64,000 nucleotides of DNA, from the NCBI RefSeq assembly GCF_009765865.1, contig NZ_LMUQ01000012.1, forward strand, positions 1 through 64,000, given 5' to 3'. Under the pieces are notes generated by a model, which was not told the DNA's origin, did not search any database, and saw only the letters and a program-made list of their open reading frames with translations. Of this stretch, positions 6,658-59,136 are shown piece by piece. Made by a program: the position numbers and the translations under genes. Position 1 is the stretch's first letter. Every line of letters begins with the position of its first letter. Origin of the DNA: Acidisoma sp. L85. Its GTDB lineage: Bacteria; Pseudomonadota; Alphaproteobacteria; Acetobacterales; Acetobacteraceae.

Positions 6658-7677
<1,020 letters not shown>

Positions 7678-7689
7678 GCGGCCGGAGGG

Positions 7690-7725
7690 CTTGGCCGTTC
7701 GGTGCTCGCGGAGCATGACGTGGCA
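7690..7725. repeat. Degenerate half copy of the GAGCATGAC repeat
   Basis: The sequence TTGGCCGTTCGGTGCTCGCG followed by GAGCATGACGTGG resembles the right arm of the repeats at 113-240 and 4618-4704, including the GAGCATGACGTGG end. The left arm is missing. It lies downstream of hemB. Confidence 0.45.
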
Positions 7726-7821
7726 CCGTAAGGTGAACGGCAATCCAATGTTGGCGGCCGAGCTAACGTTGCGAAACCAGCCGCCCGCCCCAATTCCGAC
7801 CTCATAAGCCGAGAATCCCGC

Positions 7822-43355: not shown

Positions 43356-45472
43356 GAGGGCGCCCCCCAATAGGCATCCTGCGCGCACCAATTCGGATCC
43401 GCGCCCGGAATCTTGTAGCGACCGATACGGTTGTTCGAGACGCCGCCGAGATAGAGATAGCCCCTGTGCTCGCGCATCGAGGTGATCATGGGATGGTTCT
43501 CACCACCTAAATCCCACAGGCTTTCGAGAATATCGCCACGTTCGTTGAAGCGGATGACGCAGCCCGTATTGATATTCGGATATAGCCAAAGATCGGGCGC
43601 CACACGCCGCGCCATGCGGCGGCGGAAACCTGGCATGGATAGCGCGAGATCGAGCGCGGGGGTCCGCATCCCTAGCAGCGCCGCCCAGTAATTGCCATCC
43701 GACGATCGGTTGATGTTGTCGGGATAGCCAGGAAGATTCGCCAGAACCGGCTCGCGCTTGCCCTTTTTAGGCCCATCGAACCAGTAGCGGCTGATCGAAC
43801 AGGTCCAGCTCTCGGCGAAAAGGAAAGACTGGCCGTCGGACGCCGTGACGACGCCATTGGCGAAAACCAGCTTGTGGATCTCGGTACGCGTGCTCCCGTT
43901 GCGCGGGTCGTAGCAAATCATTCGCCCATTGCCGCGGCTTTCCAGCGCGTCGGTCGCCCAATCCTCCTGCTCGTAACGGATCGTCGCCTCGCTGAAATAG
44001 ACCCGTCCGTCCGGCGCGATATCGAGATCATCGGCCAGACGCAGGCGCGAATCATCGACGACCGAGAGCAGGCTGCGGTTGGTCTCGTCGGTGAGCTTAC
44101 TCACCACTTTGTCGGGCGAAACCTGATATAGCCCCATGCCGCCGATACAGACGAGAAGATTGCCTGCTCGGTCGAAAGCCATGCCCAAAGGATGGCCGCC
44201 GATATGCGCGAAAACCTCGTGCCGCTTATGGTCCGGGCCGAAGAAGCGCACGATGTCGCCTTGGCGCGTGCCGCAATAGAGGTTGTCGGCGCGGTCGAGA
44301 ATCACGTCTTCCGGACCCTCGATCACGCCGAGACCGATAATCTCGACGTTGCGAAGCTTGTCGTTCAGCGCATAGGGCGAGCCGGGATCCGTGGTACGCG
44401 GCGGCGGCGGCAGCGTGAGATAGGCCGGAGACACGTAGATCTTCGACAGCCATTTCTCGCGGTTCTTCAGCCAGCGCATATCGATGAAAACCGCACCGAT
44501 CAGGACGCAGCCCAGAATCATCGAAGTCACCGGCCCGGTAACGCCGAAGTTGATGAGGCTATTGGTCAGAATGAGCACCAGCAACGCGCCCATGATGGCC
44601 TTGGAGACAGAGCCGCGCCCGCCGCCGAGCGAATTGCCACCTAGCACCACGGCCGTCAGCGCGGAGACCTCCAACCCGATGCCGGTATCGGAACCGGTGC
44701 TGCCAAGCCGGGCGGCGAACAGAAACCCCGCCAGCGCACAAAGCCCGCTCGACCACACATAGGCAAAGAACACCGTGCGGCGAACATTGATGCCGGCATT
44801 ATAGGCTGACCGCCGTGCGCCACCGACCGCCGTCAATCGCCACCCTGGCCGCATCCGCGACAGCACGATATGCCAGCCGATGGCGATGACCACCGAAAGG
44901 ATCAGCGAAAAGGGAATGGCGAAGACCGCGCCGGCACCAAGAAAGTCCCACAGATCGGAATCGACATTTCCGGAAACCAGCGCGGTCGAGAAATGGAGGA
45001 AAACCAGCTCGTAGATCGAGCGAAAGATGATGAGTGTGACGAGTGTCGTCAGGAAGGCGCGCAACCGCATGTAGCCGACGAGGAAGCCATTCAACGCGCC
45101 GCAGACCGCGCCCATTGCCAGGGTCGCGACCCAGACAACCGGAATAGGCCAGCCCAACACGTTGATACCGAGCAGTGCGAACAACACGGACAGCGAAAAG
45201 ACCGCACCGACGGAGAGATCGATGCCGCCCGAGATAACGACGATCGCAAGACCCAGAACAACCAGCCCGAATTCGGCGATCTGACGGCCGAGATCGGACA
45301 GATTCGAGAGTGCGAAGAAATCCGGCGTGATCGCGCCGAAAACAACGATCACCGCGATCAGCGCGATGAACGGAATGGCGTTGTCGATCCACCGCTTGGA
45401 CAGCAACTCCCCGACCAGATGGTCGGGGAGATAGCGGTAGCGCAGGCGCGCAAGGGTCTCGTTCTGGGGCAT
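43352..45472 (-). CDS. Fusion: RbsC-type ABC permease + strictosidine-synthase/SMP-30-like propeller
   Basis: A single 706-residue frame. Residues 1 to about 345 are a CUT2 permease with some ten membrane segments, including SGGIDLSVGAVFSLSVLFAL and the conserved VVLGGNSLGGGRGS loop. A basic segment (RWLKNREKWLSK) and a proline-rich linker (LPPPPRTTDPGSP) follow. From about 385 to the end is a beta-propeller with GPEDVILDRADNLYCGT, FANGVVTASDGQSFLFAESW and LPGYPDNINRSSDGNYWAAL, typical of the strictosidine synthase/APMAP-like branch. The positive residues after the last helix put the propeller in the cytoplasm. I see no frameshift or internal start that would split it. Confidence 0.85.
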   Translation of the reverse strand: MPQNETLARLRYRYLPDHLVGELLSKRWIDNAIPFIALIAVIVVFGAITPDFFALSNLSDLGRQIAEFGLVVLGLAIVVISGGIDLSVGAVFSLSVLFALLGINVLGWPIPVVWVATLAMGAVCGALNGFLVGYMRLRAFLTTLVTLIIFRSIYELVFLHFSTALVSGNVDSDLWDFLGAGAVFAIPFSLILSVVIAIGWHIVLSRMRPGWRLTAVGGARRSAYNAGINVRRTVFFAYVWSSGLCALAGFLFAARLGSTGSDTGIGLEVSALTAVVLGGNSLGGGRGSVSKAIMGALLVLILTNSLINFGVTGPVTSMILGCVLIGAVFIDMRWLKNREKWLSKIYVSPAYLTLPPPPRTTDPGSPYALNDKLRNVEIIGLGVIEGPEDVILDRADNLYCGTRQGDIVRFFGPDHKRHEVFAHIGGHPLGMAFDRAGNLLVCIGGMGLYQVSPDKVVSKLTDETNRSLLSVVDDSRLRLADDLDIAPDGRVYFSEATIRYEQEDWATDALESRGNGRMICYDPRNGSTRTEIHKLVFANGVVTASDGQSFLFAESWTCSISRYWFDGPKKGKREPVLANLPGYPDNINRSSDGNYWAALLGMRTPALDLALSMPGFRRRMARRVAPDLWLYPNINTGCVIRFNERGDILESLWDLGGENHPMITSMREHRGYLYLGGVSNNRIGRYKIPGADPNWCAQDAYWGAPS

Positions 45473-45482
45473 GAGCCGGTGG

Positions 45483-46481
45483 CTATTTCAGCTCGCTCAG
45501 CGACCAGCAATTGCGCGGCGTTAGGTTGTCCTTCGTGAGGATCGTCAGCGGCGTGTAGTAGGTATTCTTGACGGTTCCGGCCTTGGCGGGAGAGAGCAAC
45601 AGCTCAACAATCTGCTGGTTGAGGATATCGCCCTGCAGCGGCACATTGTAGCTCACGGTCATATCGAGCAGGCCTTTGCGGATATTGTCACAGCCATCCT
45701 TGGTGCCGCCGCCCGAGGTCACGACATAGACTTTTCCGGTCTTGCCGGCCTGCTGGATAGCCGCGCCGGCACCGACATCCTGGTTGTCCCAATTGCCGAC
45801 GACACCGCAGAGATCCGGGTTCTGTTGCAGAACCGTCTCCATGATCGCGCGTTCCTTGGCCGGATCGTAGTTCGCGGCCTGCTCGGAGACGATCTTCATG
45901 TTGGGATGCTTCCCGAAGACGTCGTGATAGGCGAAGAGCTCATAGAGGTTGGAGGCCGCCGTCGGCACGCCCTGCATGATGGCGACCTTGCCGGAGGTGC
46001 CGGGACCGCATTGCTTCACCAGCGCATCCGCCTCGACATAACCCACCTTCACCCAATCGGCGCCGACATAGGAATCCGTGGCGAGCGAGGATTCCAGATT
46101 GACCTGCAGCACCTTGATCCCAGCCTGCTCCAGACGCTTGATCGGCCGTGAATAGGACTGCACGTCTGGGTTATGGACAATGACGAGGTCCGGCTTTTGC
46201 GCGATCAGCGAGGTGAGCGCTCGTGTTCCGGCATCGGTACTCCAATTCGGGTCGCGGATTTCGAACTTGTAGCCGAGATCAGCGGCCTGGCGACGCATGA
46301 TGGCGGCCCAGCCTTCCGTCAGGTCGAAGCCCATGGCAAGCGGCACGAAGACCACAGTCTTGCCCTTGAGGCCATCGTAATAGGGCGCACGGCGAGCCGC
46401 ATTCGACAGCCCGACATCCTGCGCATAGGCCGTGCTGATCGCGAAGAAGGCGCTCAGCACGAAGGCGATGAGGCGAAGCAT
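45483..46481 (-). CDS. Sugar-type ABC transporter substrate-binding protein (periplasmic binding protein, RbsB-like)
   Basis: A 332-residue binding protein with a Sec signal peptide (about 1-20, ending STAYA-QD). The fold signature includes VVFVPLAMGFDLTEGWAAIM, LIAQKPDLVIVHNPDVQS, VGADWVKVGYVEADALV and CGVVGNWDNQDVGAGAAIQ, as in Peripla_BP_4 proteins for sugars and related ligands. Two pairs of cysteines may form disulfides. It lies between the two permease genes of the operon. The ligand is unknown; context suggests a sugar, lactone or aldonate-like compound. Confidence 0.88.
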   Translation of the reverse strand: MLRLIAFVLSAFFAISTAYAQDVGLSNAARRAPYYDGLKGKTVVFVPLAMGFDLTEGWAAIMRRQAADLGYKFEIRDPNWSTDAGTRALTSLIAQKPDLVIVHNPDVQSYSRPIKRLEQAGIKVLQVNLESSLATDSYVGADWVKVGYVEADALVKQCGPGTSGKVAIMQGVPTAASNLYELFAYHDVFGKHPNMKIVSEQAANYDPAKERAIMETVLQQNPDLCGVVGNWDNQDVGAGAAIQQAGKTGKVYVVTSGGGTKDGCDNIRKGLLDMTVSYNVPLQGDILNQQIVELLLSPAKAGTVKNTYYTPLTILTKDNLTPRNCWSLSELK

Positions 46482-46545: not shown

Positions 46546-47535
46546 TCAGATATCGCCCTGTTGCTGCTGCGCGGTTTGCTCGTCACGGGGGTTTATGACG
46601 CTGTCGGCAATCAGTGCCAGCAGCAGGATGATGCTCTTGACCAGATTTTGCTCGGTATAGGAGACGTTGAGGATGGTCATTCCATCCAGCAACACGCCAA
46701 CCAGAAGCGTGCCGACAAGCACGCTGCGTACATTGCCCCGCCCCCCGCTGAGGCTCACGCCGCCAAGCACGACGACGAGCAGCACGTCATAGATCATCGT
46801 CGAATTGTAAATCCGCGTGCTCATGCTGGCGACGGATGCGGCCATTACCAGCCCGGCCGCATAGGCGATCAGGCCGGTGACGACATATTGCGCGACGATG
46901 AGGTTGCGGACTGGAATGCCAGCGATACGGGCGGCTAGCAGATTGTCCCCGATCGCATAGACGAAGCGGCCAAAGCGCGTCCAGCGCAGGAGCAAATAGA
47001 CCATGGCCGCCAATATGGCGAAAGCGATGATCGGCACCGGCACGCCCAACACACGGCCGACGCCGAGGAAGGAGAACCAGCCGGCATTGTCGGGCACGTT
47101 CTGCACGTCGATCTTGAAGAAATACGCGCGCCCCACGCCATAGACCGCGAGGCCCATGGCAAGCGTCGTAAAAATCGCCGGAACATCGGCGTAGGCCACG
47201 AGGATTCCCGTGATACAGCCGACGACAATGACGAACCCCGCGCCGACCAGCAAAGCAAGGTCGAAGTTCATCCCGGTCTGTGCCAGGGAGAAAGCCCAAG
47301 AAACCGCGACCACCATCGTGGCGATCATCGCAAGATCGATCCCCCGCCCGATCACGACGAGGCCCATGCCCAGACCAAGCATGCCCAGGATCGAAACGCT
47401 GCGGACCAAAGCGATGATATTGCCGGAGGTTAGGAAGCCATGCAGGCTCGCGGCGAAGCCCAGGAAAAGGACACAGGCCAGCGCGAAGACGATGCCCTCC
47501 TGCGTAACCTTGAAGCGGCCTGCTAAGGCCCTCAT
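46546..47535 (-). CDS. RbsC-type ABC transporter permease
   Basis: A 329-residue inner-membrane permease of the CUT2 class, about ten membrane segments, with VVIGRGIDLAMIATMVVAVS and the ATPase-contact loop VVVLGGVSLSGGRGN. It is the first gene of the operon 47535 to 40741 and is divergent from the SDR at 47745. Together with the fused permease it should form a heterodimeric channel driven by the single two-domain ATPase. Confidence 0.92.
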   Translation of the reverse strand: MRALAGRFKVTQEGIVFALACVLFLGFAASLHGFLTSGNIIALVRSVSILGMLGLGMGLVVIGRGIDLAMIATMVVAVSWAFSLAQTGMNFDLALLVGAGFVIVVGCITGILVAYADVPAIFTTLAMGLAVYGVGRAYFFKIDVQNVPDNAGWFSFLGVGRVLGVPVPIIAFAILAAMVYLLLRWTRFGRFVYAIGDNLLAARIAGIPVRNLIVAQYVVTGLIAYAAGLVMAASVASMSTRIYNSTMIYDVLLVVVLGGVSLSGGRGNVRSVLVGTLLVGVLLDGMTILNVSYTEQNLVKSIILLLALIADSVINPRDEQTAQQQQGDI

Positions 47536-47744
47536 TTTCCTGTAGGTGCTCGCATTACCGATGGACCGGCGACTCCGTCGCTGGTCCCTCCCCCTGTTCC
47601 ATTATGGTTGAGCGACTGTACGCACAGCGTCACGCGGCCAGAAATAGCGTGGGCTGGCATAGCAGCTATAGTCACGACAATAGGCCATTCCGGCAGAGCG
47701 AAAGTCTATCCTCATGAAAATAAATCGTCGCAGGAGGAATTGCC
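47536..47744. promoter_or_regulatory. Divergent control region of the first sugar ABC operon and an SDR gene
   Basis: The 209 bases between two divergent genes hold an exact inverted repeat ATAGCAGCTAT (listed separately) that recurs in the LysR gene region. AGGAGGAA at 47734-47741 area is a strong ribosome site for the SDR. The rest carries no gene. Confidence 0.6.
47659..47669. promoter_or_regulatory. Operator-like palindrome ATAGCAGCTAT, copy 1
   Basis: A perfect 5+1+5 inverted repeat. It also occurs at 58150-58160. Around both copies further bases agree: GCCAGA lies about 20 bases upstream and TCAC with a nearby GACA downstream. LysR-type regulators bind short dyads of this kind (known), and the second copy lies just before a LysR gene, so this is probably its operator at a distant target promoter. 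Confidence 0.65.
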
Positions 47745-48485
47745 ATGTCCAGCCGGCTTGAGGGTAGCACACTCGTCACAGGCGGAGCCGGCGGAATTGG
47801 CCGCGCGATCGTTCAGGCACTGGCCGCGCGTGGCGAGAGGGTCATCATCGGGGATTTCGATGCCGCCGCCGCGAAGATCCTGGCCGACAGCTTAGGCCCC
47901 AAGGTTCTGCCACTCGCCCTGGACGTCACGGATGCCGCCGCCGTGGATAGCCTGCTCGATCGCATTCCCGCGGAATTCCTGCCGCTCCATACACTCGTCA
48001 ATAATGCGGGCCATGATGTTGGCGGCCGCACGCGTTTCGACCAGGGCTCGGCCGATGACTGGGCCAGCATCATCGACACCAACCTGAAAGGCATGATGCG
48101 CGTCACCCGCAGCGTCATCCCGGCGATGGTGAAGCGTGACGCCGGCGATATCGTCAATATTACTTCGGTGAGCGCGGTGCGGATGGTGCCTGATATGGCC
48201 GCCTACACGGCCAGCAAGGCCGGCGCCAAGGCTTTCACGGAAATGCTGCGTGCCGATCTCGCGGAAACCGGCCTCCGCATCACGGAAATTCAGCCCGGCC
48301 TTACCCGGACCGACATCATCGTCAAACGCTATCGTGGCGACCGCGAGGCCGAACGTGCGTATTTCGAGCAGTATCGCATGGCACTCGACCCCGCGGATGT
48401 CGCGAGGTCGGTGCTTTTCGCATTGGATCAACCGCCGCAGATGCAGATCGCCGAGATCCTTCTGCTGCCGGTCAACCGCTGGTAG
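47745..48485 (+). CDS. Short-chain dehydrogenase/reductase
   Basis: A 246-residue SDR with LVTGGAGGIGRAIVQALA (cofactor motif), NNAGHDVGG, the catalytic serine in NITSVSAV and Tyr-Lys in AAYTASKAGAKAFT. It resembles YdfG/serine-dehydrogenase-like SDRs in length and in the DRIPAEFLPLHTLVNNAG segment. It is divergent from the first ABC operon and shares its control region, so it likely oxidises the imported compound or a product of it. It is convergent with the MBL gene that follows. Confidence 0.9.
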   Translation: MSSRLEGSTLVTGGAGGIGRAIVQALAARGERVIIGDFDAAAAKILADSLGPKVLPLALDVTDAAAVDSLLDRIPAEFLPLHTLVNNAGHDVGGRTRFDQGSADDWASIIDTNLKGMMRVTRSVIPAMVKRDAGDIVNITSVSAVRMVPDMAAYTASKAGAKAFTEMLRADLAETGLRITEIQPGLTRTDIIVKRYRGDREAERAYFEQYRMALDPADVARSVLFALDQPPQMQIAEILLLPVNRW

Positions 48486-48500
48486 ACCGGCAGCAGAGAC

Positions 48501-49382
48501 TTAGGAGACGAGACTTACCGCGCCATCAGCCAGCGCGATCTCGCTGATTCGCAGGCCGGTTTCCTTGATGATTCGTGACGGGAAGAGGTTTCTGACCTCC
48601 TCGTCATGGATCGGAACGACGCGCTTGTAGTCTCCGCCAGCCTCTTTGATCATCGCATCGGTCGCGAAGAGCAGATTGGTGTGGCTGACCATGGCGAGGC
48701 CGACCGGCACGTAATACGGGTCGTCCGGTGTCTGGCTGGTCATGTTCTGGTAGCTGTAGACCAGATCGCCGGCCAGCACCCAGGTATCCTCGCTCTTGGT
48801 CGCGCCATCGTTGCGGACGGCGACATATTGGCAGCCCCAGGTATGGGTATCCGGCGCCGAGCGGATATCGATGTTCGGCAGGAAGTTCTCGCGGTCGCCA
48901 TCGAGTGCCACGAGGCGGCCCTGGCGCGCCAGATCAACGATCCGCATGATATCGGCGGGATCGGTCGCGACATTGAGCCAGCGGAATTTCCGGTCCAGCG
49001 CCATCGCCCAGATCCATTTCGAGAGCTCACGCTCCTGGATATAGAACTTGGCGTTCGGGAAGGCGTGAGTATTGCCGGCGTGGTCGAAATGGGCGTGGGT
49101 GAGCACGATGTGCTCGACCTCCTCCGGCTTCACGCCCGCTTCCTTCAGCACCACATCGGCGGGCTGCCAGCCATGGACGTTGAACAGCTTGCCTAGCGTC
49201 TCGCCATAGGCGTGATGGTCGTAGCCGACATCCACCAGGACCGTCGTGCCCTGGCCTTTGATGAGGACATAGCCATAGGGCATTTTCCGCGTGCCCTGGT
49301 TATGCGCGCCGTAGACGATGCCGGTAATCGGCGCCGTCGGCATATAGGCGTATTCCATAACCCAGATCGAATAATCCGCCAT
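48501..49382 (-). CDS. Metallo-beta-lactamase-fold hydrolase, N-acyl-homoserine-lactonase-like (first)
   Basis: A 293-residue MBL-fold enzyme. The metal motif is LTHAHFDHAGN (HxHxDH), with further ligands expected at APDTHTWG (His) and VLAGDLVYSY (Asp) and a C-terminal His in VPIHDEEV. Such enzymes open lactone rings; AHL-degrading members are one subset. Start ATG 49382 has GGGAGAAC upstream. It is last in an operon with an SDR, a sugar-type ABC importer and a Tat-dependent binding protein, which favours a sugar-lactone or similar metabolite over quorum-sensing signals. Confidence 0.8.
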   Translation of the reverse strand: MADYSIWVMEYAYMPTAPITGIVYGAHNQGTRKMPYGYVLIKGQGTTVLVDVGYDHHAYGETLGKLFNVHGWQPADVVLKEAGVKPEEVEHIVLTHAHFDHAGNTHAFPNAKFYIQERELSKWIWAMALDRKFRWLNVATDPADIMRIVDLARQGRLVALDGDRENFLPNIDIRSAPDTHTWGCQYVAVRNDGATKSEDTWVLAGDLVYSYQNMTSQTPDDPYYVPVGLAMVSHTNLLFATDAMIKEAGGDYKRVVPIHDEEVRNLFPSRIIKETGLRISEIALADGAVSLVS

Positions 49383-49432
49383 CGCACCGTTCTCCCGTTT
49401 TCTTTGCGCCGGCCTATTGGCCAGCTTCGGAC

Positions 49433-50209
49433 TCAAGCATTCGCGACGAAACCGCCGCCGTCAATAACGACCGCCTGCCCGGTGATGAAGGACGCGGCGT
49501 CGGAGCTCAGGAACAGCACCAGCTGGGCGATTTCCTTCGGGTCGCTGATGCGGCCCATCGGGATCAGGGGGATGACCGTGTCCTTGGCCCCCTGCTCGCT
49601 GCCGAACATATTGGTGAGCAGCGGCGTCATCACGGAACCGGGAGCGATGGCATTGACGCGGATATTTTTCTTCGCGACTTCCAGCGCCACCGAATTGGTC
49701 AGCCCAATCACCCCCCATTTGGACGCGCAATAAACCGCCGTGGTGGCAAAGCCCATGACACCGAACAACGACGAGGTATTCACGATCGCGCCACCGCCAT
49801 GCGCGAGCATGTGCGGCACCTGATATTTCAGGCCGAGGAAAATGCCCTTGAGGTTCACATCGACGATCTGGTCGAAATCCGCCTCGTCCAGCTCGTGAAC
49901 CAGTGCGGTCTTGCCGGGGATGCCGGCATTGTTGAAGGCGATGTCGATGCGGCCGAAACGGGCGGCGGCGCGCTCCACCAGCGCCTTGACCTCGGCATCG
50001 CGACGGACATCGACCTCGGAGAACTCGACCCCAACCTTGGTGGTGCGAGCAATTTCCTCCTTTAGGCTGGCACCCTCGGCGGCGCCGATGCCGGCGACGA
50101 AGACGTTGGCGCCAGCTTGGGCGAAGGCGAGCGACGTGGCGCGACCGATGCCGCTGGTGCCACCGATGATGAGCGCGGTTTTGCCCGAGAAGTCATAGGT
50201 CACATTCAT
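49433..50209 (-). CDS. Short-chain dehydrogenase/reductase
   Basis: A 258-residue classical SDR: ALIIGGTSGIGRATSLAFA (cofactor motif), DIAFNNAGIPGK, NTSSLFGVMG with the catalytic serine, and VYCASKWGVIGL with Tyr-Lys. The C-terminal SSDAASFITGQAVVIDGGG is typical of glucose-dehydrogenase/BacC-like members. It sits between the permease and the MBL gene in an ABC operon, so it probably oxidises a hydroxyl of the imported compound, perhaps to a lactone that the MBL enzyme opens (inference). Confidence 0.92.
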   Translation of the reverse strand: MNVTYDFSGKTALIIGGTSGIGRATSLAFAQAGANVFVAGIGAAEGASLKEEIARTTKVGVEFSEVDVRRDAEVKALVERAAARFGRIDIAFNNAGIPGKTALVHELDEADFDQIVDVNLKGIFLGLKYQVPHMLAHGGGAIVNTSSLFGVMGFATTAVYCASKWGVIGLTNSVALEVAKKNIRVNAIAPGSVMTPLLTNMFGSEQGAKDTVIPLIPMGRISDPKEIAQLVLFLSSDAASFITGQAVVIDGGGFVANA

Positions 50210-50243
50210 GCGGCTCTCCGAAGTTGTGGGGCACGCCGCCCCG

Positions 50244-51236
50244 CTATTTAACGATGCGGCTCAGCAGGCGATCCTGGCCGACCAGAACGGCGCCCACCAC
50301 GACCGCGCCTTTGATGACCATCTGCCAATAAGGCCCGACACCGAGCAGGTTGAGGCCGTTATTCAGCAGCGCGATAATCGCGACGCCGATAAAGGTGCGA
50401 TGCACGCCGCCGATACCGCCCGCCAACGACGTGCCGCCCACAACAATCGCGGCAATGGTGTTGAGCAGCAGATCCTGGCCCAAGGTCGGGCCGACTGCGC
50501 CTAGCCGTGACATGGCGAAAACCGCGGCGATGCCCGCCATCAGACCCGAGAAGGTGAAAGAGGCGATCTTGTAGCGCCCCACTGGCAACCCCGCCGTCCG
50601 GGCCACGATCTCCCCGCCGCCGATCACCAGCGCGAAGCGGCCGAACTTGGTCCAGATGCCGATCGCAACACAGATGAACCACAGCACCAAAGCGCAGAGC
50701 GCGATATTGGGCAGGTGGCGGATCAGTTGCCCGGTCGAGAGCGTATCGAGCACATCGGAATCGAACATGATCGCACGGCCGCTGAGGATGCTCAGCGCCA
50801 TGCCGGTGAAGATCGAGAGCGTGCCTAAGGTCACCACGAAACTCGGCACGCGCCCAGCGACGCAGATGGTGCCGTTCACGCCGCCACAGATCGCGCCGAG
50901 CAGCGCCGCCAGCGGCAAAATCATCAAGCCGTAATCGTGATTGGCGAGAAGGCTCACGCAGACCGAGCCGACCAGCAGCACGATCGCGCCCACGGAGAGG
51001 TCGATGCTGCCCATCAGGATCACGAAACTCGCGCCCAGCGAAGCGATGAGCAGTGTCGCGGCCTCGCCGGTGATGGCCGAGAAATTCCGCCAGCTCAGGA
51101 AGGGCGGCGACGCGATGCCAAAGACGACGATCAGCCCGACCACCACCAAAATCGGCAGCCACATGCCGCGATTGGCCCTGAGGGATTGCCAGACGGCATT
51201 CGGCGGCGTGGGGCGAGACGGGCTCGTCTGTGACAT
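50244..51236 (-). CDS. RbsC-type ABC transporter permease
   Basis: A 330-residue CUT2 permease with about ten membrane segments; IDLSVGAIVLLVGSVCVSLL and IVVGGTSLAGGIGGVHRT mark the family. ATG 51236 is chosen because a GAGAG ribosome site lies before it; the frame is open from a TTG at 51254 inside the ATPase gene. The permease follows the ATPase gene by 14 bases. Confidence 0.92.
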   Translation of the reverse strand: MSQTSPSRPTPPNAVWQSLRANRGMWLPILVVVGLIVVFGIASPPFLSWRNFSAITGEAATLLIASLGASFVILMGSIDLSVGAIVLLVGSVCVSLLANHDYGLMILPLAALLGAICGGVNGTICVAGRVPSFVVTLGTLSIFTGMALSILSGRAIMFDSDVLDTLSTGQLIRHLPNIALCALVLWFICVAIGIWTKFGRFALVIGGGEIVARTAGLPVGRYKIASFTFSGLMAGIAAVFAMSRLGAVGPTLGQDLLLNTIAAIVVGGTSLAGGIGGVHRTFIGVAIIALLNNGLNLLGVGPYWQMVIKGAVVVGAVLVGQDRLLSRIVK

Positions 51237-51250
51237 GCTCTGGGAATCTC

Positions 51251-52783
51251 TCAAGCGGCGCTGGGCAGCATATGCGGAATGAGGTCGTGTTCGGTGGGTT
51301 TCGCCTCGACCGGCGCGGCGATTTCGGCCACCACCCTCCCGCGCTGCATGATCAGGATGCGGTTCGAGAGGCCGATCAGCTCGATGAGTTCGTCGGTGAT
51401 CAGCACGATGCCAACGCCCTGCTCCGTCAGCCCGCGAATATGCGCGTAGATTTCCTCCTTGGCGCCGGCGTCCACACCGCGTGTCGGATTGTCGAGCACG
51501 AGCAGCTTGAGGTTCCGCTGCAGCCAGCGCGCGAGCACCACTTTCTGCTGGTTGCCGCCGGAGAGGTTGCGCAACGGCCCACCTGGCGAGCCGGAGCGTA
51601 TGCCCATTTCCCGCACAGCACGTTCAGCGGCGCGCCGCTCGCGCCGCAAGCGCCAGACACCAAGATGCGAGAAGCGGTCGGCGCTCGGCAGCGACAGGTT
51701 GATGGCGAGCGAGAGGTTCGGAATGATCCCCTCCACCAGCCGCTCGGCCGGAACGTAGCCGACGCCCTGGCGGATCAGCTGCGCGATGCGCGGCAGCCGG
51801 GCAGCGGCCCCGGCCAGCGCGATGGTGCCTTCCGCAGGCGGCTCGACTCCCGCGAGCGCCTTGCCGAAAGCGGATTTGCCGGAATCGAGCAAACCGCCCA
51901 GCCCGATGATCTCGCCCTCGCGGACATCGAAGGAGATCCCGTTGAAGCCGCGACCCTTGAGGCCCTTCACGCTGCAAAGCATGGGCTTGGCTACGGCCTG
52001 TTGCTGGCGTGCGACATGATAATAGTCGTCGGAGCGCTCCCGCCCGACCATCAGCGCGTAGATATCCGTCTCCCCGGTCGTCTTCGGGTCGAGCTTTTCC
52101 GAAAGCCTGCCGTCCCGCATCACATGCATGGCGTCACTCACCGCCCGCACTTCCGAAAGGCGATGCGAGACGAAAACGAAGGAGGCCTGGGCTTTCAGCC
52201 GCAGGAGCAGATCGAAAAAGGCCGTCTCGTCCTCGCGATCCAGCGCCGAGGTCGGCTCGTCCAGCAAAACGACCGGATCCTCGAGCCCGAGGAGATGGCG
52301 CGGCGCCAGACAGGCGCGCGCGATCTCGATCGCCTGGCGCTTGGAAAAATCGTAGCCGCTGGTGACGCGGCGGACATCGACATCGAGCCCGGCATCCTCG
52401 ACGATCTTCTCCGCCACCGCGATCATCGCCCGCTTGTCGAGAAACTGACCCAGCCGCGTGAAGCGATGCTCCTGTGACAGAACCAGGTTTTCGTAGACGG
52501 GAATATTCGCGACCAGCGCCTGCTCCTGAAAGACGCGCGTCACACCGCGCGCGAAGGCGTCAGCGAAACTCTGGGGCCGGTAGTCACTCCCCTTCAGCCT
52601 CATCGTCCCCGCATCGGCGCGCTCGAGGCCGGTGACGATATTGAACAGGGTCGATTTGCCCGCACCGTTTTCCCCGACCAGACCGATGATCGATCTGGGG
52701 GGCACGGCCATCGTCACGTCATGAAGCACCGGAATAGGCCCGAAGCTTTTCGACACGCCTTCGATGCGAAGCAGATCCGTCAT
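51251..52783 (-). CDS. RbsA-type sugar ABC ATPase (two ATP-binding domains)
   Basis: A 510-residue CUT2 ATPase. Domain 1: GENGAGKSTL, with DEPTSALDRED as Walker B. Domain 2: a degenerate Walker A (GLLDSGKSAF), LSGGNQQKVVLARWL and DNPTRGVDAG. The full-length signature of the class is present. It pairs with the binding protein before and the permease after it in one operon. Confidence 0.93.
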   Translation of the reverse strand: MTDLLRIEGVSKSFGPIPVLHDVTMAVPPRSIIGLVGENGAGKSTLFNIVTGLERADAGTMRLKGSDYRPQSFADAFARGVTRVFQEQALVANIPVYENLVLSQEHRFTRLGQFLDKRAMIAVAEKIVEDAGLDVDVRRVTSGYDFSKRQAIEIARACLAPRHLLGLEDPVVLLDEPTSALDREDETAFFDLLLRLKAQASFVFVSHRLSEVRAVSDAMHVMRDGRLSEKLDPKTTGETDIYALMVGRERSDDYYHVARQQQAVAKPMLCSVKGLKGRGFNGISFDVREGEIIGLGGLLDSGKSAFGKALAGVEPPAEGTIALAGAAARLPRIAQLIRQGVGYVPAERLVEGIIPNLSLAINLSLPSADRFSHLGVWRLRRERRAAERAVREMGIRSGSPGGPLRNLSGGNQQKVVLARWLQRNLKLLVLDNPTRGVDAGAKEEIYAHIRGLTEQGVGIVLITDELIELIGLSNRILIMQRGRVVAEIAAPVEAKPTEHDLIPHMLPSAA

Positions 52784-52805
52784 GCGCGCGTCCGGCGGGT
52801 TTGGC

Positions 52806-54134
52806 TCAGCCCTTCTTCATCGGCGAGGGGCCGAACATGTCGATCTTGTAGTGCGCCTTATATTCGTCCGCCACCGCCTGCGACTGGCCGTTTTGCCGCG
52901 CATCCATATAGGCCTTGGGATATTCCCAATTCGCCGGCTTCTTGATGCCCTGCCATTCGACATCCATGTCGAGCGGCGTCATCAGATCCTGCGGGTCCCA
53001 ATCCTTCGGATGCAAGACTTTAGACATCAGGCGATAGTCGAAGGGCGCGACATCGCCGTTGTTCACGTAACGCTCGAGATAGGTATCGACATTGTCGAGC
53101 GTCATCATCTTCGAACCCCAATGCATCATCCGCTCCGGGGCGCGGGGCTGCCAGCCATTCATGACGTCATAAAGTCGCGTCGTCATCATCGCGCCCATGA
53201 ACTGCGGGACATTCGCCGCCGTCGCCACCAACTGGCCGCGTTTGATGGCCGAGGCCGCTTCGGGATTGCCGTCTCCGGCGGAAACGATGAGCACGTCGTC
53301 GCCTGCTTTGAGCCCGGCGGTTTTGAGCGCGGCGATGGCGCCTGCGGCCTCCTCGTCATTGGCGGCGTAGATGCCGACCGCGTCGGGATGCCGGGTGAGT
53401 AGATCCTGCGCGGCCTTGTTTCCATCTTCCATGTTGAAGTTTCCGGGCAGGTCATCGACCAGCGTGAATTCCGGGAACGCCTTGAAGGCATCGTTGCGGC
53501 CCCGCGTGCGCAGAAGATCAGTGATGAAACCGGGAATACCGGTCAGGCCGATGATTTTGCCGCCCTTGCCAGTCTTCTTCTTGATCTCGGTCAGCAGCTT
53601 TGTGGTGACTTCAAAGGCCGCATGATAGTCGTCCGGATCCGCGTAGTAGGTGTAGTATTCGCTGGCATCGAAGGGCGTGAACCACGGCTCCGTCGCCCAG
53701 ACATTGGCGACCCAGGTTTTATTCTGTCCCGCCAGCTTCGCGATGCGTTTGATGTTGCTGCCGTCCGGCGCGTTGAGGATGACGCCGCCCAAACCACCGG
53801 CGGCTGCCAGTTGCTCGTATTGATCGAGCTGATGTTCGCTGTTCAGCTCTGCATCCGCCGAGGTGCTGCCGATCTTGAGAGCGGCCGTTGTGTCCTCGAC
53901 TGACTTCTTCACCGTCAGGCAATATTGCAGGCGAGAGGAGAAATACATATAGGCGATCTTGCCACTGGGCGCCGCGATCGCGGCCGTCGGCAGCCCAAGC
54001 GTGCGCGCGGCGGCACCGACCGCGACACCCGCCGTCACCAACTGCACAAAGTCCCGACGCGACACGCCACGCGTATCGAGACGATCGAGATGGCGATCGA
54101 TCAGCTTCTTGTCGGACAGGTCTGGAATGCGCAT
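52806..54134 (-). CDS. Sugar-type ABC substrate-binding protein with twin-arginine signal
   Basis: A 442-residue binding protein that begins with an unusually long N-terminal part: GVSRRDFVQLVTAGVAVGAA is a twin-arginine (SRRDF) signal with hydrophobic core and a cut near AIAA-PS. That implies export in a folded state through Tat instead of Sec. The mature domain matches the periplasmic binding protein type 1 (GGVILNAPDGSNIKRIAKLA, IYAANDEEAAGAIAALKTAG) with a C-terminal extension of about 100 residues. ATG 54134 has GGGGAAAC upstream. It heads the operon of five genes to 48501. Confidence 0.88.
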   Translation of the reverse strand: MRIPDLSDKKLIDRHLDRLDTRGVSRRDFVQLVTAGVAVGAAARTLGLPTAAIAAPSGKIAYMYFSSRLQYCLTVKKSVEDTTAALKIGSTSADAELNSEHQLDQYEQLAAAGGLGGVILNAPDGSNIKRIAKLAGQNKTWVANVWATEPWFTPFDASEYYTYYADPDDYHAAFEVTTKLLTEIKKKTGKGGKIIGLTGIPGFITDLLRTRGRNDAFKAFPEFTLVDDLPGNFNMEDGNKAAQDLLTRHPDAVGIYAANDEEAAGAIAALKTAGLKAGDDVLIVSAGDGNPEAASAIKRGQLVATAANVPQFMGAMMTTRLYDVMNGWQPRAPERMMHWGSKMMTLDNVDTYLERYVNNGDVAPFDYRLMSKVLHPKDWDPQDLMTPLDMDVEWQGIKKPANWEYPKAYMDARQNGQSQAVADEYKAHYKIDMFGPSPMKKG

Positions 54135-54207
54135 CGTTCGTTTCCCCAATTGACTGGCCGCCTTTCATTGGCGGCGCATATTGATTTAGTGCTTAACCGC
54201 GACCCAA

Positions 54208-54331
54208 AGATCCGTCATGGCACGCGAAGGCGTGCGGGGCACCCCGTGCCATCCACACCTTCTCTTTTCTAAGCAAGCAAGGCGCGGATGCGCGGCCTTC
54301 GCCGAGCATGACGTGGTGGAATGAGCACGGT
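54208..54331. repeat. Intergenic palindromic repeat, CCTTCGCCGAGCATGAC family (copy B)
   Basis: Matches 113-240 at both ends: AGATCCGTCATGGCACGCGA and GGCCTTCGCCGAGCATGACG with TGGTGGAATGAGC. Interior sequence has diverged and forms GGGGCACCCCGTGCC-type short stems. It sits between the SBP operon and the MBL/CMD/PrpD operon and may terminate transcription from the latter. Confidence 0.7.
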
Positions 54332-54352
54332 TCGAACCAAAGACACTCCGTT

Positions 54353-55165
54353 TCAGAAGGCACTCTGACGTGGCGGCACATCCAGGCGGGCGATGATGCC
54401 TTCGAGTTCGGGGCGCGGTGGCGGATAAAGCGCCATCACCAGAGGATCATGCCCGGGAATAATGTAGTCCCTTCCCGCTGCCTGGCGCCGCACGAGATCG
54501 AAAGCCTCAACGGCATCACCTGCATGGAAGACCGTCGTGAAGGGCCGCCCACTATCCATGTTCTCGAAATAGTGCAGAACATCGGAAGCCAGAACGACCC
54601 AGCCGCGCTGGGTATTGACCCGAAGAAATTGCAGCCCGCCCGAATGTCCGCTCGCGAGGTGCAAGGTAATGCCCGGCGCCAGTTCGTCATTGCCGCGATA
54701 GAAGGTCACCCGGCCGCCATAATTCAACCGCACGATGCCAACAACATCCTCGACCTCAAAGGCATGGTTGAGGAAGGGATGCCGCATATAGCGGCCGGTG
54801 GCGTAGTGAATCTCCGGCTCCTGGAGATGGAACTGCGCCACAGAAAACTTGTCGAAATTGCCGACGTGATCGTAGTGCAGATGTGTCAGCACCACATCCT
54901 TCACCGTCTCTGCGGAAAGCCCAACCAGAGATAGTGCCTCGATCGGATCGCGCAGAAATTCGCGTTTGCGCTTCACCGCCATTTCCGCGGTGAAGCCGGA
55001 ATCGATCACGAAGCTACGCTCCGCACCGATCGCCACCCACACGAAATAATCCATCCGCATCGGCCCATCATGCGGATCGCCGCCAAGGAAGTTATCGGCG
55101 CGACGGCCCTCGCGGGTCGCGTAGCGAATGGCGTAGAGTTCGTAGGTGGGCAGGCTATCGGGCAT
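54353..55165 (-). CDS. Metallo-beta-lactamase-fold hydrolase, N-acyl-homoserine-lactonase-like (second)
   Basis: A 270-residue MBL-fold enzyme with VLTHLHYDHVGNFD (HxHxDH), a His in ASGHSGGLQ and Asp in LASDVLHYFEN, plus IIPGHDPLVM near the C-terminus. It resembles the AttM/AiiA-like lactonase group. It is only distantly related to the gene at 48501. Encoded with CMD, PrpD and HIBDH-like genes, it probably hydrolyses a lactone or ester intermediate of a catabolic route; AHL degradation is an alternative. Confidence 0.8.
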   Translation of the reverse strand: MPDSLPTYELYAIRYATREGRRADNFLGGDPHDGPMRMDYFVWVAIGAERSFVIDSGFTAEMAVKRKREFLRDPIEALSLVGLSAETVKDVVLTHLHYDHVGNFDKFSVAQFHLQEPEIHYATGRYMRHPFLNHAFEVEDVVGIVRLNYGGRVTFYRGNDELAPGITLHLASGHSGGLQFLRVNTQRGWVVLASDVLHYFENMDSGRPFTTVFHAGDAVEAFDLVRRQAAGRDYIIPGHDPLVMALYPPPRPELEGIIARLDVPPRQSAF

Positions 55166-55185
55166 GCACCGCGCCTCGCTCTGGA

Positions 55186-55569
55186 TCAGCCCGCTTTAGC
55201 TTCTTCGGCGAAGACTTCGCGAGCGATGCGGAAAGCGTCGACGCCTGCGGGAATGCCGCAATAGACCGCGACCTGCAGAAAGACCTCCCGAATTTCGTCC
55301 TTCGAAACGCCGTTCTTCAGCGCGCCTTTCACATGCATCTTCAGCTCGTGCGGCCGGTTCAGCGCACTGATCATCGCGAGGTTGAGCAGGCTGCGTGTCT
55401 TGCGCGGCAGACCATCGCGGCCCCAAATCGCGCCCCAGCAATATTCGGTGGTGAGTTCCTGCATCGGCATGTTGAAGTCGTCAGCGGTCTTGAAGGAGTT
55501 CTCCACGAACTCCGCCCCCAGGATCGACTTGCGAATTTCGAGCCCGCGTTCGAAGACTTCGTTGGTCAT
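55186..55569 (-). CDS. Carboxymuconolactone decarboxylase family protein
   Basis: A 127-residue all-helical protein of the CMD/AhpD-like family. WGRDGLPRKTRSLLNLAMIS, HVKGALKNGVSKDEI and VAVYCGIPAGVDAFRIA are typical of PcaC-like 4-carboxymuconolactone decarboxylases. The usual catalytic Cys of AhpD (CxxC) is absent, so it is the CMD type. True PcaC function needs other protocatechuate genes, which are absent here; a decarboxylase or lactone-acting role in this cluster is inferred. Confidence 0.85.
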   Translation of the reverse strand: MTNEVFERGLEIRKSILGAEFVENSFKTADDFNMPMQELTTEYCWGAIWGRDGLPRKTRSLLNLAMISALNRPHELKMHVKGALKNGVSKDEIREVFLQVAVYCGIPAGVDAFRIAREVFAEEAKAG

Positions 55570-55585
55570 GGCTTTCTCCTTGATT

Positions 55586-56950
55586 CTAGCTCTGCGTCAG
55601 TGCTGCGATAACGCCGACATCGTCCAGCTTCTCCAGACGCGATACAGCCTCCTCCAGCGCCGCCGCCTTGCTGCCACCAAGGATCGCGGAGGCGGCATCG
55701 CGGAAACGCTGCACGACACCCTCTGGCGTCGCCGGCACGACATCGGGAAGGCTGCGCGTACGCTTGGTGCCGTCCTTCAGCGTTACTTCAACGGAGGCAC
55801 CCTGCCGGCCCGGATAGGCCGAAGTGAACTCCGCCCCCTCCTCGACCGTGAGTTTCTGCGCAAGTTGTATGATCGCCGGATCGTCAAGCCTGCGGTAGTT
55901 TTCTTCGGAGACGCCACCATGCACCAGAGCGGCGGCGACACCGAAATGGATGCTCATCTTCGCCTGCAGGATGCGGCCGAAGGGTCCCGCATAATCGCAG
56001 CCGGGGTACATCACCATGGCGCGGGTGCCGCGCACGCGAATGGCCTGCACATCGCCGGGGCGAACCCCGTCCTCGCGTGCCAATAGCAGCATCACCTGGC
56101 ACGGCGTTTGAGCGAAGTTACAGGCAGGAACCGGCTTGTTATAGACGCTCAGGATCTCCGGCGTATCATCCGCAAACAGCGTGATGGCGGGGATCGGGTT
56201 GCCCGGTCGATAGGCCGCGAAAAGCCCCGCCGCGCCGTCCAGCACGCGTTCGGAGGATCGCGCGCCGAGCGCCGCCAACTCGACCGAAGTCACGGAATTG
56301 CGCGCCGCGAAACCGGCATGGAAAAACATCTCGTCGCTACCCGTCGCAGGCCATTCGTTGAGGCCACTCAAGGTATTGACCGCGAGGGACAGTGCACTCG
56401 CCGTTTCCTCCTCGCTGAGCCCCATCATCCGCGACCCCGCGATTGCCGCCGCGACCGGCCCCGCGAACCCGGTCGGGCGGAAGAAGCGTGCGAATTCCGA
56501 GGTGATCAGCGCGCGGCCAAAACGCCCGCCCGCCTCATAGCCAAGAATTGCCGCCTCGATGAAGTCGCGCCCGCTGACAGGGCGGCGCGCCGCAAGCGCC
56601 AGCAATGTCGGCATGATGACGACGCCAAGGTGGCTGATGCTGCCGGTATGCATATCCTCCCGCACCAGCCCATGCCCCATCACCGCATTGGCGAAGGCCG
56701 CTTGCGGCACCGGCGCGCGATGCGCGGTGCCGAGAACCGGCGCCGCGCCCTGCTCCATGGTCGCGAATCGGATGGCCTGCACCGAAATCGGCAAATCCCG
56801 AGATTCCAGCGCGCAGGTGAGGAAATCGAGCAGGCAGATGCGCAGCTTCTCGGCCGCTTCGGCGGCGCGCGGAATTGTCGCGGTCAGAGCCGCATGCGCG
56901 ATGCCGCGACAAAGCGGAACGCCTGCATCAAATGTCTGCATGCCATCCAT
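55586..56950 (-). CDS. MmgE/PrpD family protein
   Basis: A roughly 454-residue protein of the 2-methylcitrate dehydratase (PrpD/MmgE) family. Landmarks are an all-alpha N-terminal domain, DFLTCALESRD, GTAHRAPVPQAAFANAVMGH near residue 80, FHAGFAARNSVTSVELAALG and the lid region toward the C-terminus. Family members dehydrate or isomerise tricarboxylic-type acids; several have unknown substrates. Start at ATG 56950 overlaps the preceding stop as TGATG; a GTG one codon upstream is possible. Confidence 0.88.
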   Translation of the reverse strand: MDGMQTFDAGVPLCRGIAHAALTATIPRAAEAAEKLRICLLDFLTCALESRDLPISVQAIRFATMEQGAAPVLGTAHRAPVPQAAFANAVMGHGLVREDMHTGSISHLGVVIMPTLLALAARRPVSGRDFIEAAILGYEAGGRFGRALITSEFARFFRPTGFAGPVAAAIAGSRMMGLSEEETASALSLAVNTLSGLNEWPATGSDEMFFHAGFAARNSVTSVELAALGARSSERVLDGAAGLFAAYRPGNPIPAITLFADDTPEILSVYNKPVPACNFAQTPCQVMLLLAREDGVRPGDVQAIRVRGTRAMVMYPGCDYAGPFGRILQAKMSIHFGVAAALVHGGVSEENYRRLDDPAIIQLAQKLTVEEGAEFTSAYPGRQGASVEVTLKDGTKRTRSLPDVVPATPEGVVQRFRDAASAILGGSKAAALEEAVSRLEKLDDVGVIAALTQS

Positions 56951-57843
56951 CACGCGCGCACCTCCACTCCCGCCCAGGTCTCGATATTCCGGACCATGGA
57001 TGTGAAATCGGACTCCGGCCCATAAACGGCATTCGTCACCGCCAGCATTTGCCGCACCATGGCGCCCACCGGCATCGGAATGCCCATCGCCTCAGCCTCA
57101 TCCAGGCAAAGGCGCACATCCTTGTAGGATAGCCCAGTCATGAAGCCGTAATCGAAAGTCCCCTCCAGCACGGATTTGGGGAACTTGTCCTGGATCGCGC
57201 TGTTGCGACCGCTGCTGACATTGATGACGTCGATCATCACCTTGGGGTCAAGCCCCGCCTTCATGCCCATCACCATGCCTTCGGCGGAGATCGCCATGGC
57301 ACAGGCCGCCAGAAGATTGTTGATCAGCTTGAGGGTCTGCGCCGAACCCGGCTTTTCGCCGATGTAGAAGAGATTGCCGAAAATCGCGAGCAGCGCTTCG
57401 ACCTCGCCATAGCTCGCCTTCGGGCAGGAAACCATCACCGCCAGAGTGCCGTTCTTGGCGCCCTTGATCCCGCCGCTGACCGGGGCATCGACCGAGATGA
57501 TGCCATGTTCGCGCAAACCCTCCGCGACGCTCGATGCGACGCGCGAGCCGGTGGTGGAGAGATCGACGAAGATCTTGGCGCGGCCGCCATGGGCCACACC
57601 GTCCTCGCCCAGTGCGACCTTCTGCACCACGGCCGGGCTCGGCAGGCTGGCGAAAACGATATCCGAGGCGGCGGCGACCTCTGCGGGAGAGCCGGCGCGC
57701 GTGGCGCCCTCTCTGACGAGCGCGTCCACCACAGCGGAGCTGGGGTCTGTGACGACTACGGCATGCCCCGCAGCGAGCAGCCGTTGCGTCATGAAACCGC
57801 CCATGCGGCCGACGCCGACAAAGCCTAGTTGCTGACCTGACAC
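56950..57843 (-). CDS. 3-hydroxyisobutyrate-dehydrogenase-like beta-hydroxyacid dehydrogenase
   Basis: A 297-residue NAD-dependent enzyme. Cofactor motif FVGVGRMGGFMTQRL (about 8-22), substrate-binding DAPVSGGIKGAKNGTLAVM (about 118-136) and catalytic Lys in TLKLINNLLAACAMA (about 171) define the beta-hydroxyacid dehydrogenase family. Substrate could be a tartronate-semialdehyde-, hydroxyisobutyrate- or related acid. It is first of the operon HIBDH-PrpD-CMD-MBL and divergent from the LysR gene. Confidence 0.9.
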   Translation of the reverse strand: MSGQQLGFVGVGRMGGFMTQRLLAAGHAVVVTDPSSAVVDALVREGATRAGSPAEVAAASDIVFASLPSPAVVQKVALGEDGVAHGGRAKIFVDLSTTGSRVASSVAEGLREHGIISVDAPVSGGIKGAKNGTLAVMVSCPKASYGEVEALLAIFGNLFYIGEKPGSAQTLKLINNLLAACAMAISAEGMVMGMKAGLDPKVMIDVINVSSGRNSAIQDKFPKSVLEGTFDYGFMTGLSYKDVRLCLDEAEAMGIPMPVGAMVRQMLAVTNAVYGPESDFTSMVRNIETWAGVEVRA

Positions 57844-58221
57844 TTCTACCCCCTGCGGCGCTTGCCGCCCCGGCCTATTCGCCTCTCGCCCGCATCACCA
57901 TCGCCACAAGCGGCATATCAGCCTGCGGCGGCGACGTATCCTGTCGCCGAGCCGCGGTCGCTGCGGCTTCTCCCGGAATCCTGCGCCAACGCCGGGCGGC
58001 GTGACGCATAATCCCATGCCCATTTGTCCAATCGGATGGAAATAGGCGCGAGATGCGCCTGCTCGAATGTTTCCCGGGCACTTAGCGGACCCTTGCATGG
58101 TCGGAAGGCTAGCGGCGCGGCTGGTCCCGTGCCAGATTGCGCGGCGGCTATAGCAGCTATGATCACCGCGACAGGAGTGGCGCGGATGGGCCAAGCTTAG
58201 CGTTTACCGACTGGAACCCGC
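57844..58221. promoter_or_regulatory. Divergent control region between the HIBDH operon and the LysR gene
   Basis: A 378-base gene-free stretch with two promoters expected. The palindrome ATAGCAGCTAT lies 61 bases before the LysR start. Open frames inside (57875-58081, 57895-58194) are Arg/Ala/Ser-rich shadows without ribosome sites and are not called. Confidence 0.6.
58150..58160. promoter_or_regulatory. Operator-like palindrome ATAGCAGCTAT, copy 2
   Basis: Identical to 47659-47669. Positioned about 60 bases upstream of the LysR start, where autoregulatory LysR sites normally lie (known of the family), and between the LysR gene and the divergent catabolic operon. Confidence 0.7.
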
Positions 58222-59136
58222 TTGGAACTGAAACAGCTCCGATATTTTCTATCCGTTGCCGATGCCGGCAGCTTCTCGAAGGCTGCAGTCAAGCTGTCGC
58301 TGACCCAGCCGGTGTTAAGCCGGCAAGTCAAGTTTCTCGAGGAGGAACTGGGTGAGGAGCTGTTTTACCGCAACGGCCGCGGCATCGTCCTCTCCGACGC
58401 CGGCGAGGTTCTCGCAACCCATGCCCGCAGCATGGTTGAAGTCGCCGACCGCATTATCGGCGAGATGGCCGCGCGACGGACTTCGCCGAGCGGCAAAGTC
58501 GCCATCGCGATGCCACCCTCGATCGGCTGGGTGCTGACGGTTCCTTTGGTGCAGCGCTGCCGGGAATTTTATCCGGCGATCTCCCTGCATGTCGTCGAGG
58601 GCTTCAGCGGCCATGTCCTGGAATGGCTGGCAAACGGACGCGTCGATATCGGCGTCGTCTACAACGCGCCGCGTCACCCAACCCTGCTAACCGAGCCATT
58701 GCTCGAAGAGGATTTGATCCTGCTCGGCCCGATGTCGGACCCGGCGGGCGTCGGCAACGGCTCCATCACCGCCGAGCGGCTGGCGCAGGTGCCCCTCATC
58801 ATGCCGGCGAGGCCGCATGGGCTGCGCATGCAGGTCGATCAGGCGATGAGCCGGCTCGGCGTCACGCTGCGCATCGAGCACGAGATGGATGCAATGGCCT
58901 CAACCCTAGGCCTGGTCGAGGCAGGCGTCGGCTACACCATCCTCTGCTATGCCGCGACCGAGCCGCGCATCGCAGCGGGCCGGCTACGCTGGTGGCGAAT
59001 CGCGGCGCCTACCCTCACCCGGCAGCTCATGCTCGCGACAGCGACGCAACGCCCGATGACCGCGGCGACGCGACTCGTCATCAAGATGATTCGCGACCAG
59101 GTGGCGGATCTGTCCTGGGGTCCGGCGACGGGTTAG
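58222..59136 (+). CDS. LysR-family transcriptional regulator
   Basis: A 304-residue regulator. The helix-turn-helix is ELKQLRYFLSVADAGSFSKA with SLTQPVLSRQVKFLEEELGE (residues about 2-46), followed by the effector-binding domain. The start is TTG at 58222 (first residues ELKQLRYFL); an in-frame TAG at 58198 rules out a start further up. It is divergent from the HIBDH operon and convergent, with 5 bases between, with the hydroxyacid dehydrogenase. The ATAGCAGCTAT sites suggest it controls that operon and the first ABC/SDR unit. Confidence 0.93.
   Translation: MELKQLRYFLSVADAGSFSKAAVKLSLTQPVLSRQVKFLEEELGEELFYRNGRGIVLSDAGEVLATHARSMVEVADRIIGEMAARRTSPSGKVAIAMPPSIGWVLTVPLVQRCREFYPAISLHVVEGFSGHVLEWLANGRVDIGVVYNAPRHPTLLTEPLLEEDLILLGPMSDPAGVGNGSITAERLAQVPLIMPARPHGLRMQVDQAMSRLGVTLRIEHEMDAMASTLGLVEAGVGYTILCYAATEPRIAAGRLRWWRIAAPTLTRQLMLATATQRPMTAATRLVIKMIRDQVADLSWGPATG

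Follow-up and report, generated by a model that had tools for sequence, protein, structure and literature searches.

A repeated 11-base palindrome as the candidate operator of a LysR-type regulator in Acidisoma sp. L85

The stretch of DNA analysed here (the window) comprises 64,000 nucleotides of Acidisoma sp. L85 (contig NZ_LMUQ01000012.1, positions 1 to 64,000). It holds two copies of the palindrome ATAGCAGCTAT, one beside a sugar-type ABC transporter operon and the other beside lysR, the gene of a LysR-type regulator. As judged from genome comparison, both palindromes are very probably operators of this one regulator, encoded at 58222-59136. The comparison shows that the candidate box (consensus ATARCWGYTAT) has been retained in front of both lysR and the sugar-type ABC operon, and that it accompanies the LysR lineage across several families. 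The palindrome is a probable LysR docking site because LysR-bearing relatives keep it before the same genes. A first-pass annotation, made from the letters of the window, had proposed a single LysR regulon joining both operons. This proposal is supported by sites at orthologous places, by enrichment of the motif upstream of lysR homologues, and by its co-occurrence with LysR at permease loci.

Genomes are given handles below: G000 is the window's own genome, G002 is Acidisoma cellulosilyticum, and G004 is A. silvae. Perm1, SDR1, SBP1, MBL1, MBL2 and similar names are labels for window genes, and C and L numbers denote contigs and loci of the handled genomes.

Two palindromes and their conservation in Acidisoma

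The two sites, the elements next to them and the regulator gene are as follows.

47659-47669: site 1, candidate operator ATAGCAGCTAT, between Perm1 (minus strand) and SDR1 (plus strand); exact and in the same place in G002 and G004
58150-58160: site 2, candidate operator ATAGCAGCTAT, between the HIBDH gene (minus strand) and lysR (plus strand); exact in G002 and G004
47644-47649: half-site ATAGCG, starting 15 bp before site 1; at equal spacing ATAGCG in G002 and ATAGAG in G004
58130-58137: TGCCAGAT, a block before site 2 that three Acidisoma genomes share without change
58222-59136, plus strand: LysR-type regulator, 304 aa, TTG start; Pfam HTH_1 (1.9e-22) and LysR_substrate (2.3e-42); orthologues at 85-87%

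The coordinates and the neighbouring genes reported in the first-pass annotation hold, and both palindromes are intergenic. The distance from site 1 is 123 bases to Perm1 and 75 bases to SDR1; from site 2 it is 61 bases to the lysR start and 306 bases to HIBDH. In G002, a further element, ACAGCAGCTAT, follows on the other strand 31 bp beyond the half-site near site 1; both elements may be weaker half-sites of an activation site. The agreement of the flanks, which the annotation had also put forward, stands only in part. TCAC occurs at the same offset (+2) at both sites, and GCCAGAT is kept in G002 and G004 at site 2 alone. However, GCCAGA begins 22 bases before site 1 and 19 bases before site 2, GACA lies at +6 and +9, respectively, TCAC is lost in the relatives, and most of the flanks are not conserved.

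Sharing of the word had been called hard to explain by chance. Resting on 11-mer identity alone, that argument fails, and such identity was dropped as evidence for a shared operator: identical 11-mers are common in the window, with 2,691 pairs against a mean of 1,688 in 40 shuffles. Ten different palindromes of the form 5-1-5 are repeated in the window versus 6.7 in shuffles, but a repeated one with at least six A/T positions is found once versus 0.05. Matches to ATAGCAGCTAT at zero or one mismatch are confined to the two sites; dinucleotide shuffles give a mean of 0.27 matches, and 0 of 100 equal the 4 observed (both strands counted). No further site in the window matches ATARCWGYTAT at 10 or 11 of 11 positions. 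Between 37133 and 61395, sites 1 and 2 are the only intergenic 5-1-5 palindromes, and intergenic bases make up 1,211 of 24,263 there (~5%). Genome-wide (6,376,414 bases, 85 contigs), a scan of the kind the annotation had proposed finds 4 exact copies of ATAGCAGCTAT, 2 of them at these sites. This count is by itself unremarkable because the pattern read backwards occurs five times. The fourth copy (C46:53197) falls inside a predicted coding region.

Five genomes of the genus were searched. The nearest named relatives of the LysR protein are in A. cellulosilyticum (NZ_JAESVA010000008.1; 87%) and A. silvae (NZ_JAESVB010000053.1; 85%), whereas G001 and G003 contain only remote matches to LysR and SBP1. 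Exact copies of ATAGCAGCTAT number three in G002, three in G004, one in G001 and none in G003. When orthologous control regions are compared, two of the three copies in both G002 and G004 stand at the orthologous genes, corresponding to sites 1 and 2; the third is in a predicted coding region with flanks alike in both genomes. The same motif is therefore found upstream of orthologous operons in other species, although the order of the blocks differs in G002, where the sites are 14.7 kb apart, and the blocks of G004 are on separate contigs. In each alignment, at site 1 and at site 2, the longest identical run is 14 nt and contains the motif. Outside it, the identical fraction is 33-37%: 121 of 328 ungapped columns for site 2 and 68 of 203 for site 1, counting the ends of neighbouring genes that the alignments include. 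The right-hand neighbour of site 1 in G002 and G004 points leftward, towards the site, which makes the ABC operon the natural target of site 1 in these species.

The motif at distant LysR and permease loci

LysR homologues were sought in overlapping sets of 60 genomes of relatives, 299 of the order, 385 of the class and 398 of the phylum. The near group consists of homologues at 44-62% (10 loci in 9 genomes), and the control group of 29 LysR genes at 40% or less. When the 150 bp upstream are scored for the best match to ATAGCWGCTAT, a pattern defined from Acidisoma alone, the near group sums to 81, compared with 67.8 (standard deviation 2.2) in shuffled sequence, and 0 of 300 shuffles reach 81. 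The controls show no excess (205 versus 201.0, standard deviation 3.8; 47 of 300 shuffles reach 205), with "upstream" being approximate for some of these loci because the query match begins at residue 2-6 and with L024, L028, L030, L033 and L034 omitted from the group by no stated rule. Two further genes at 39-41%, G002:C4 and G050:C12, were placed in neither group; each has a motif match upstream and, as a control, would weaken the contrast. In G002:C4, the interval between an amidohydrolase gene and the 39% LysR paralogue holds a perfect 41-bp palindrome (L146:5537-5577; 20-base arms, core ATAACAGTTAT).

A later consensus, TARCWGYTA, is matched at 8 or more of 9 positions at 7 of the 10 near-group loci. 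A word search that used no Acidisoma sequences ranks CTGTTATGCCG first, with a score of 91 compared with shuffle maxima averaging 86.9 (highest 90; 40 shuffles); the result is modest but picks out the same motif. The gene arrangement around these loci agrees with that of the window, in which the site lies near the regulator's own gene and a divergent neighbour. In G229, G400, G1037 and G838, the motif (with one mismatch in G838) separates lysR from a divergent SDR1 homologue (57-60%), and in G994 and G739 a one-mismatch form separates lysR from a divergent HIBDH gene. Plasmid relatives of the regulator are represented by one record, from Shinella sp. PSBB067 (45.8%), lacking gene annotation at that place.

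The class search returned 16 Perm1 homologue loci. Within the 400 bp upstream, three of these contain at least 10 of 11 matches, and they are in G000 and G650, both of which have the LysR. The best value at 10 loci from 8 genomes without a LysR match at 1e-70 is 9 of 11, and three paralogous loci in G000 and G650 likewise reach 9 of 11 at most. Overall, the motif stands at 6 of 9 Perm1 loci in LysR-bearing genomes versus 0 of 10 in genomes without LysR (Fisher p = 0.003), a table to which G002, G004 and G739 were added by directed look-up with one locus each and their paralogues uncounted, and in which the placing of the 8 LysR-lacking genomes among the 385 of the class is inferred from their numbering and the same draw. 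The motif is thus absent where LysR is absent, with G001 as the exception. In G650, homologues of Perm1 (66-67%) and SDR1 (65%) flank ATAACAGTTAT, as at site 1. In G002 and G004, SDR1 is without a close homologue (best match 38%). It nevertheless belongs to the system, as its homologue diverges from lysR, with the motif between, in four genomes and lies in this Perm1/SDR1 arrangement in G650.

The motif was loosened to MTARCWGYTAT after the distant lysR sites had been seen. In this form it has 52 places in 13 genomes, 18 of them inside the present clusters (~0.8% of the sequence), whose limits (0.6 Mb in total) were set by hand, so that binomial values serve as a guide only. Read backwards, the pattern is more frequent in 13 of 13 genomes, and the motif is therefore not a common word. 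The lysR/SDR1 region is its sole place in G229. In G000, G002 and G004, 20 of 29 places fall between genes and 9 within predicted genes, according to gene calls from a basic codon-usage script that was trained on 18 genes of the window. Another kind of transporter, consisting of a branched-chain type permease and a binding protein, has the motif in G002, G001 and G739, and in G004 it has a form with one mismatch. In the window's genome, ATAGCTGTTAG on contig C59 lies 81 bases before a 77% identical branched-chain type permease gene, and this transporter gene probably belongs to the predicted regulon. The third exact ATAGCAGCTAT of that genome (C37:1696; L038) is intergenic as well, with a Zn-alcohol dehydrogenase gene on one side and a sugar-binding-protein gene on the other, and marks a possible further target.

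Known LysR boxes and other readings of the sites

OxyR boxes have the form ATAG-n7-CTAT. They share the ATAG and CTAT tetranucleotides with the Acidisoma palindrome but have a spacing of 7 rather than 3. OxyR is a distant relative of the window's LysR and its best solved-structure match (5.3e-23). The protein itself has the make-up of a LysR-type regulator, with an N-terminal HTH_1 and a C-terminal LysR substrate-binding domain. In the excerpted text of PMC4834489, regulators of this type recognise a palindrome close to the regulator gene, repress their own expression and switch on a divergent target from near -65, with a second contact site. The present system shares with that scheme a lysR beside a divergent operon, a palindrome close upstream of lysR, and catabolic targets; it differs in its 11-bp ATA-n5-TAT palindrome and in a second site 10.5 kb away that would serve a separate operon (PMC4834489). 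The usual LysR box is T-N11-A, and the gammaproteobacterial extended consensus is CTATA-n9-TATAG, according to the excerpts of PMC5002191. Those boxes also have ATA/TAT arms, an odd-numbered palindrome and half-sites nearby, but their ATA-TAT spacing is 9 instead of 5 (PMC5002191); the likeness noted here is between the boxes. Either this LysR lineage would read the compact palindrome, or the palindrome would be part of a longer site. Searches of an open-licence library of papers found nothing on Acidisoma with LysR, and no match for a PrpD/3-hydroxyisobutyrate dehydrogenase/carboxymuconolactone decarboxylase/LysR gene cluster or for the PrpD family with both enzymes. Among the matches listed there for the operator sequence, searched in several spellings, no title concerned a LysR regulator.

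Several observations weigh against control of these sites by the LysR protein. Only 2 of the 26 collected sites have T-N11-A centred on the palindrome, and the conservation of the core among the 26 is partly by construction, as they were chosen by likeness to the motif. Three of the 10 near-group loci (G650, G496 and one of the two G739 genes) remain below 8 of 9; the G650 protein is the closest distant homologue (62%), yet its lysR is preceded by a match of 6 of 9. Conversely, a match of 8 of 9 is found for 2 of the 29 controls. Simple scans found no sigma-70-like promoters or terminators, including no such promoter in either site region. No LysR orthologue was found in G001, which nevertheless has the enzyme operon and two sites; its contig starts inside the SDR gene that separates lysR from HIBDH in G002, and the break is beside the expected place of lysR. 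In G739, a second, unrelated-looking LysR gene (L117:5555-6415) lies in the same stretch. Further points concern HIBDH. Its direct control is favoured by the divergent arrangement in G994 and G739. In Acidisoma, however, this is the least certain link of the proposed regulon because the 306 bases between site 2 and HIBDH show little conservation and HIBDH-PrpD follows lysR on the same strand in G229, G1037 and G838. In G002, an extra SDR gene lies between site 2 and HIBDH.

Some of these points would also fit a single regulon whose binder is another regulator encoded elsewhere, with lysR itself as a target. GntR-type boxes, for example, are short palindromes, as is the 11-bp box with its rare centred T-N11-A, and both G001, with sites and target genes but no detected LysR orthologue, and the additional LysR gene of G739 could be read in this way. 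Yet enrichment of the motif is seen upstream of the LysR homologues but not upstream of the more distant LysR genes, and at Perm1 loci the motif occurs only in genomes with the LysR. Moreover, no regulator of a non-LysR family was found among the 20 window proteins and the 10 proteins of G229 scanned, which are part of the locus genes. Binding by another regulator is consequently unlikely. Much less probable still is that the sites are mainly core promoter elements. Their 3' half does resemble -10 boxes, with TATGAT at site 2 in the window, TATAAT there in G002 and G004, and TATAGT at site 1 in the window. But both arms of the palindrome are conserved, the right-hand neighbour of site 1 points leftward in G002 and G004, the scans found no sigma-70-like promoter, and an operator overlapping the lysR promoter is expected for the family, as far as the excerpts of PMC4834489 describe it. 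A chance repeat, to which the many identical 11-mer pairs would lend themselves, has a negligible probability, being already contradicted by the comparison: both sites are exact in two other species within poorly conserved DNA, and the enrichment extends to distant LysR homologues.

Gene content and proposed working of the regulon

The genes around the two sites are given from left to right.

40741-42237, minus strand: ABC ATPase, last gene of the ABC operon; Pfam; 84-87% in G002 and G004
42234-43391, minus strand: 385 aa protein inside the ABC operon with no confident Pfam or NCBIfam family; kept in the operon
43352-45472, minus strand: ABC permease fused to a strictosidine-synthase/SMP-30-like domain; Pfam; ~700 aa aligned in G004, G650 and G739
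45483-46481, minus strand: SBP1, sugar-type periplasmic binding protein; Pfam; 93% in G002 and 90% in G004
46546-47535, minus strand: Perm1, ABC permease at the head of the left-hand target of site 1; Pfam BPD_transp_2; 84-87% in G002 and G004
47745-48485, plus strand: SDR1, right-hand candidate target of site 1; Pfam; divergent from lysR in four genera and from Perm1 in G650
54353-55165, minus strand: MBL-fold hydrolase (MBL2); conserved
55186-55569, minus strand: carboxymuconolactone decarboxylase (CMD) family protein, PcaC-like just below the NCBIfam cut-off; family searches
55586-56953, minus strand: MmgE/PrpD family protein; Pfam; kept with the cluster
56950-57843, minus strand: HIBDH-like dehydrogenase, heading the operon to the left of site 2; Pfam; 83% in G002 and 57-64% near lysR in other genera

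The fusion protein has 706 aa, with the permease domain at 63-327 and the strictosidine-synthase/SMP-30-like domain at 366-601. The 385 aa protein is at 63-67% in Acidisoma and at 38-53% in G650 and G739. A. cellulosilyticum has two HIBDH genes (L065:4356-5249 and 7282-8175), one on either side of lysR and both ~83% to that of the window. Between the conserved blocks, 48501-54149 encodes MBL1, SDR2, Perm2, ATP2 and SBP2, which have no close orthologues (35% or less) in the stretches of G002 and G004 examined. In G739, SDR2 (78%) and MBL1 (51%) have adjacent homologues, within the 19-kb stretch that also holds the second LysR homologue of that genome.

Under control by the LysR protein, binding at site 2 would cover the lysR promoter region and lead to autoregulation. 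The position of this site and its -10-like 3' part would fit such self-regulation. From site 2, LysR may also act leftward on HIBDH-PrpD-CMD-MBL. At site 1, once a pathway compound occupies its effector domain, it would activate SDR1 to the right and the ABC operon to the left; the distances to Perm1 and SDR1 are compatible with activation in both directions. The encoded proteins would import a single substrate and oxidise it; a guess from the enzyme families is an oxidised carboxylic acid with lactone forms along its route.

A broader reading is possible but rather doubtful. In it, the LysR lineage would have left T-N11-A for the compact ATA-n5-TAT and would run an undescribed catabolic regulon in several alphaproteobacterial families, including two kinds of ABC importer, one of them with the permease-lactonase-like fusion, together with HIBDH, PrpD, PcaC-like, MBL and SDR enzymes. 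As bacterial gene switches go, the case is a solid but ordinary one. A catabolic region that had no annotation becomes a regulon open to testing, with a defined candidate operator, through which the substrate may be sought via the inducer and more targets via the motif. The finding also offers a LysR-type box of unusual spacing for comparison across families.

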